A DNA stretch of 26,295 nucleotides from a virus: the IMG/VR virus record IMGVR_UViG_3300034104_004806, positions 1 through 26,295 of that record, one strand, 5' to 3'. The notes beneath the pieces were generated by a model. It was not told the origin of the DNA and searched no databases. It was given only the letters and a program-made list of their open reading frames with translations. The translations under genes and the position numbers were made by a program. Positions 26,242 to 26,295 of this stretch are shown here, piece by piece (positions within the stretch are counted from its first letter, which is position 1; the number at the start of each line of letters is the position of its first letter).

Positions 26242-26286
26242 TGGTAGCGGGGGTAGGATTTGAACCTACGACCTTCGGGTTATGAG
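26242..26286 (-). other. Attachment-site core: 3' half of a CAU-anticodon tRNA gene
   Basis: Reading the minus strand, 26286 to 26242 gives the anticodon loop CTCATAA, the 3' stem CCCGA, the variable loop, a perfect T arm (GTAGG/CCTAC around TTCAAAT), the acceptor 3' strand CCCCGCT, and A plus CCA. This is the 3' half of a Met-type (initiator-like) tRNA. The 5' side (26287-26295) does not pair as an anticodon stem, so no full tRNA is present. It is the common core by which the phage enters the host tRNA gene. Confidence 0.8.
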
Positions 26287-26295
26287 GATGCCACA

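Follow-up and report, generated by a model that had tools for sequence, protein, structure and literature searches.

Integrases that target tRNA genes are expected to restore the tRNA upon integration (PMC4383910; PMC8371274), and the 7-bp anticodon loop with its stem resembles lambda attB in how overlap and core are laid out (PMC8371274). When the Islander paper appeared in 2014, only tyrosine integrases were known to target tRNA genes (PMC4383910). In tRNA-dependent lysogeny, the stretch common to attP and attB is only ~10 bp, and a tRNA is encoded by the phage itself (PMC10865867).

The window analysed here is an entire IMG/VR record of 26,295 bases, which can be extended only through its relatives. 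Its right end almost certainly comprises most of an attP, still intact, belonging to a temperate tailed phage. Like the anticodon-centred attP class of Islander (PMC4383910), the site carries a 3′ tRNA fragment, is identical to the tRNA gene from the anticodon loop onwards and would restore the tRNA. It departs from typical members of that class in that the target is the initiator tRNA-fMet, the phage family is uncultured and no integrated copy was seen. The site also resembles a lambda-type attP (P arm, IHF sites, core and P′ arm) in its repeats on both sides, IHF-like motifs, integrase and excisionase-like gene, but the arm repeats of its relatives fall into several sequence classes at the same positions, and the protein-binding sites are here putative. 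Overall, this is a textbook arrangement and ordinary biology, an already-known kind of attP present in dozens of related phages. The nearest major capsid proteins among named phages are those of Stenotrophomonas phage BUCT555 (68% identity) and Myxococcus phages Mx8 and Mx9 (58–59%).

Sequence and tRNA identity of the core

The minus strand from 26286 to 26242 reads CTCATAACCCGAAGGTCGTAGGTTCAAATCCTACCCCCGCTACCA, and these 45 nt are exactly the final 45 nt of a gammaproteobacterial-type initiator tRNA-fMet gene, starting at the 5′ edge of its anticodon loop (anticodon CAT) and finishing with CCA. The features of this end of the window are as follows.

24970–25287, plus strand: excisionase-like helix-turn-helix protein, 105 aa (Pfam HTH_17, E = 3.4e-10; PHROG excisionase families)
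25155–26162, plus strand: tyrosine integrase, 335 aa (Pfam PF00589, E = 2.2e-24; PHROG integrase)
26175–26192, minus strand: arm-type repeat GTGGGGAATTTGTGTACA, putatively bound by integrase; partner copy past the window end
26225–26237, minus strand: IHF-like motif AATCAGGCACTTA, one mismatch from WATCAANNNNTTR, putative binding site; position shared by 24 of 25 distinct attP sequences
26242–26286, minus strand: attP core, 3′ 45 nt of tRNA-fMet(CAT); exact match to host tRNA-fMet genes and related phages
26287–26295, minus strand: first nine bases of the phage arm opposite the integrase, TGTGGCATC, non-tRNA, without anticodon-stem pairing; identical in L002, L003 and L011

From the raw sequence, the initial annotation had described a tRNA 3′ fragment with a 45-bp core and a non-tRNA 5′ flank, the nine bases of which could not pair with CCCGA. 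Its coordinates and core length were correct when checked against the sequence, and the description of the flank is borne out by the exact tRNA-fMet match together with the poor pairing of the nine bases ahead of the core (26295–26287), in which the phage GCATC can form the anticodon stem with CCCGA at 1/5 positions, compared with 5/5 for the host TCGGG. No tRNA gene was found by ARAGORN in the window. The assignment to the initiator tRNA-fMet can be read from the whole gene, which is present in five virus contigs carrying the exact core.

The recombinase adjoining the core is recognized as a tyrosine integrase by its Pfam and PHROG matches and by the conserved catalytic-type residues R197, K224, H280, R283, W306 and Y315. 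It converges on the core and stops 79 bp short of it, whereas the integrase gene of Mx8 extends across attP (PMC4383910). The excisionase-like gene overlaps the integrase start. The best integrase matches among named phages, at 34–36% identity, are to phages other than BUCT555, Mx8 and Mx9.

In sampled host genomes the same core comes after TGCGGGG...GTCGGG. Genomes were sampled from a single class, the one to which a MAG labelled Gammaproteobacteria belongs, and with two T-stem positions left free to vary (Y/R), 129 of these 274 genomes contained GTCGGG plus the core; a reversed control pattern gave 0 matches, so chance does not explain the observation. Identification of the host from the core was ruled out, since so many of the sampled genomes share it. 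Variants of the core T-stem among phages are paired (TAGG/CCTA or CAGG/CCTG), as expected if the core changes along with functional tRNA genes. Among the matches listed for the core in named phages, identity was lower and many lay in phage or host tRNA-Met genes, and the phage family of the window was not recognized in any of them.

The junction in related phages

A search of IMG/VR with the integrase gene (25155–26162) recovered 47 loci, and most of the full-length ones, at 60–99% identity, cover the junction. Every member of the integrase family that does so continues from the core into non-tRNA phage sequence conserved within its clade, with phage genes beyond it where checked, and fusion of the core to a host tRNA 5′ half was found in none of these relatives. 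The nine bases TGTGGCATC are matched at 7–8 of 9 positions in many relatives, and L002, L003 and L011, in which they are identical, run on through ~100 nt of arm sequence to the end of a phage gene. Extension past 26295, which had been proposed as a check, therefore leads into phage DNA in these three contigs, and the relatives show neither the complete tRNA nor the host gene that would have spoken against an unsplit site.

Because the other side of the core is phage sequence, the site has not been split by integration. The earlier reading of an unsplit attP rather than a prophage junction is thus supported, and what had been deduced from nine bases proved right. It follows that the sequenced molecule was in an unintegrated form; virion, excised circle and replicating phage are indistinguishable here, and lysogens in the same sample are compatible with a contig that runs through attP.

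Prophage ends do bear tRNA 3′ fragments (PMC4383910), and the window by itself offers only nine bases with which to judge whether the contig ends at a true prophage–host junction, these bases being host DNA. Such a junction is nevertheless very improbable, given that relatives have these nine bases in their phage arm and that the integrase is found on the CCA side of the core, the side on which an intact tRNA remains after integration. The initial annotation had anticipated such a tRNA at an integrated CCA-side junction, and distant integrase relatives in the same geometry often have one; on the integrase side of the core in the window there is no tRNA, and the flank is phage arm.

We regard as highly unlikely the proposal that the contig end is an assembly chimera formed at the 45-bp core. 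The core does recur in many genomes, and contig ends cluster at it, with 4 of 12 falling within 61 bp, above an even spread (post hoc binomial P ~0.0006). However, many independent contigs from different samples cross the same junction in the same order. The contigs that end at the core or at most 61 bp from it are the window, at its right end, and L005, L009 and L021. The window contig probably stops at the core because this sequence recurs in hosts and in other phages, which breaks assembly.

Of the long relatives, G001 (37,878 bases) is the closest; it agrees with the greater part of the window at ~95% and carries ~10 kb of extra genes between attP and the left end of the window, including one for a CHAP-domain protein. 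Among four long relatives checked, two have exact terminal repeats with attP internal (85 bp in G001 and 127 bp in G004), consistent with circular or circularly permuted assemblies, and no terminal repeats were found in the other two (G002 and G006).

Arm-type and IHF-like sites

The IHF-like motif of the window lies four nt beyond CCA. A second such motif lies 25–26 nt ahead of the core in relatives, the window covering the CCA side only. With at most one mismatch allowed, IHF-like motifs occur on the CCA side in 24 of 25 distinct sequences and on the other side in 21 of 25, where shuffled sequences lead one to expect ~0.8 and ~0.9 respectively.

In the close relatives L002, L003, L006, L007 and L011, 16–23 nt of the arm-type repeat are common to both arms. 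Tandem arm-type repeats are located near −104 and +49, with 9–23 nt shared in 21 of 22 sequences; the mean shared length over all 22 is 14.4, compared with 6.3 after shuffling. By sequence, relatives that cover both arms therefore have on either side of the core the arm-type repeats and IHF-like sites that characterize a lambda-type attP, and we infer that integrase and IHF bind at these sites.

The repeat in the clade of the window is GGGGAATTTGTGTACA, and in most other relatives its place is taken by GGGACGT or GTGCCGT units in tandem, at roughly corresponding positions. The class of arm repeat varies by clade (L002, L012, L017, L027 and their relatives), with the positions near −104 and +49 stable and the core unchanged. 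It is as if the arm specificity of the integrase may have changed while its target stayed the same.

Proposed course of integration

In the course that we propose, the integrase, with IHF, would recombine attP with an attB located in the host tRNA-fMet gene. Strand exchange would likely take place in the 7-bp anticodon-loop segment CTCATAA, because identity begins at that loop. At one junction the phage core would be attached to the host 5′ half, so that the initiator tRNA stays working, and the other would carry the displaced 3′ half. The expected signature of attL would be an intact tRNA-fMet with AATCARNNACTTA no more than ~5 nt beyond its CCA.

Host 5′ halves joined in silico to the core of the window gave a complete tRNA-Met by ARAGORN, and the 45-nt core of attP accordingly suffices to restore the gene in such a construct; in the in silico attP and the predicted attR, no tRNA was detected by the same program. 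Although tRNA-dependent lysogeny, in which the host tRNA is broken upon integration and one encoded by the phage takes over, is known in mycobacteriophages with tyrosine integrases at tRNA genes (PMC10865867), it is scarcely credible here, where the shared stretch is 45 bp, joining yields a complete tRNA and the window contains no tRNA gene. The prophage-end, chimera and tRNA-dependent readings were all rejected.

Distant integrase relatives in bacterial genomes have 37 intact convergent tRNAs within 300 bp at the 80 loci among the matches listed, as integration predicts. The distance between such a tRNA and the point where the integrase match ends is 1–260 bp (median 98 bp); in the window the gap is 79 bp and the tRNA is broken. 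In bacterial genome contigs searched with the integrase for a lysogen of the phage family of the window, only distant homologues were present among the matches listed, and in 369 sampled genomes no lysogen with both junctions (attL and attR) was found, again only distant homologues. As no lysogen of the family was found, we infer that tRNA-fMet is its attB and that the phage of the window integrates there.

Other recombinases at the same tRNA sequence

A large serine recombinase is present in 5/5 of the virus contigs that carry an intact tRNA-fMet with the core, and its reading frame ends inside tRNA-fMet, antisense to it. The tRNA of these five contigs is intact, as had been predicted for integrated junctions. 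Two further phages have the same 45-nt core beside a tyrosine integrase.

L051, 106–1662, minus strand: serine recombinase, frame ends in tRNA-fMet
L053, 230–1810, minus strand: serine recombinase, frame ends in tRNA-fMet
L059, 11413–13065, plus strand: serine recombinase, frame ends in tRNA-fMet
L076, 104–1657, minus strand: serine recombinase, frame ends in tRNA-fMet
L079, 84–1760, minus strand: serine recombinase, frame ends in tRNA-fMet
L071, 2850–4073, plus strand: tyrosine integrase of another phage with the same 45-nt core
L077, 2633–3838, minus strand: tyrosine integrase of another phage with the same 45-nt core
C10, ~29880–36600 (L190, L191): G107 element, between tRNA-fMet and a nusA-infB-like region

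The C-terminus of the serine recombinase is GSGGRI in 4/5 virus contigs and GFEPTTFGL in 1/5, and the layout is the same in 4/4 bacterial-genome matches (L186–L189). On the far side of the G107 element, near 29,880, CCTGACCCCCGCTACCA resembles CCTGCCCCCGCTACCA and is a candidate for the displaced tRNA 3′ end, a call made by direct reading of the sequence where short BLAST was ambiguous. These observations suggest serine integrases that target tRNA-fMet, which is less ordinary than the attP itself.

The integrases of L071 and L077 have no meaningful similarity to that of the window or to each other beyond short C-terminal stretches, and their nuclease genes are related to that of the window (27–32% identity). 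With the same core, dissimilar integrases and related nucleases, the attachment site seems to be common to different integrases.

Implications

Comparison of relatives in this manner offers a means of distinguishing attP sites and prophage junctions in virus contigs. The attP of this family is conserved and looks functional, yet the junctions covered in IMG/VR are all unsplit and no lysogen was found in the genomes searched, from which it might be argued that the family seldom if ever persists in integrated form as a lysogen. We consider this unlikely; if it were true, lysogeny could be transient or episomal, or limited to hosts still unsequenced. For this uncultured phage family, the initiator tRNA gene can now be named as the likely site of insertion. 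On its own that site would not limit host range, since almost half of the genomes sampled within one gammaproteobacterial class contain the core.
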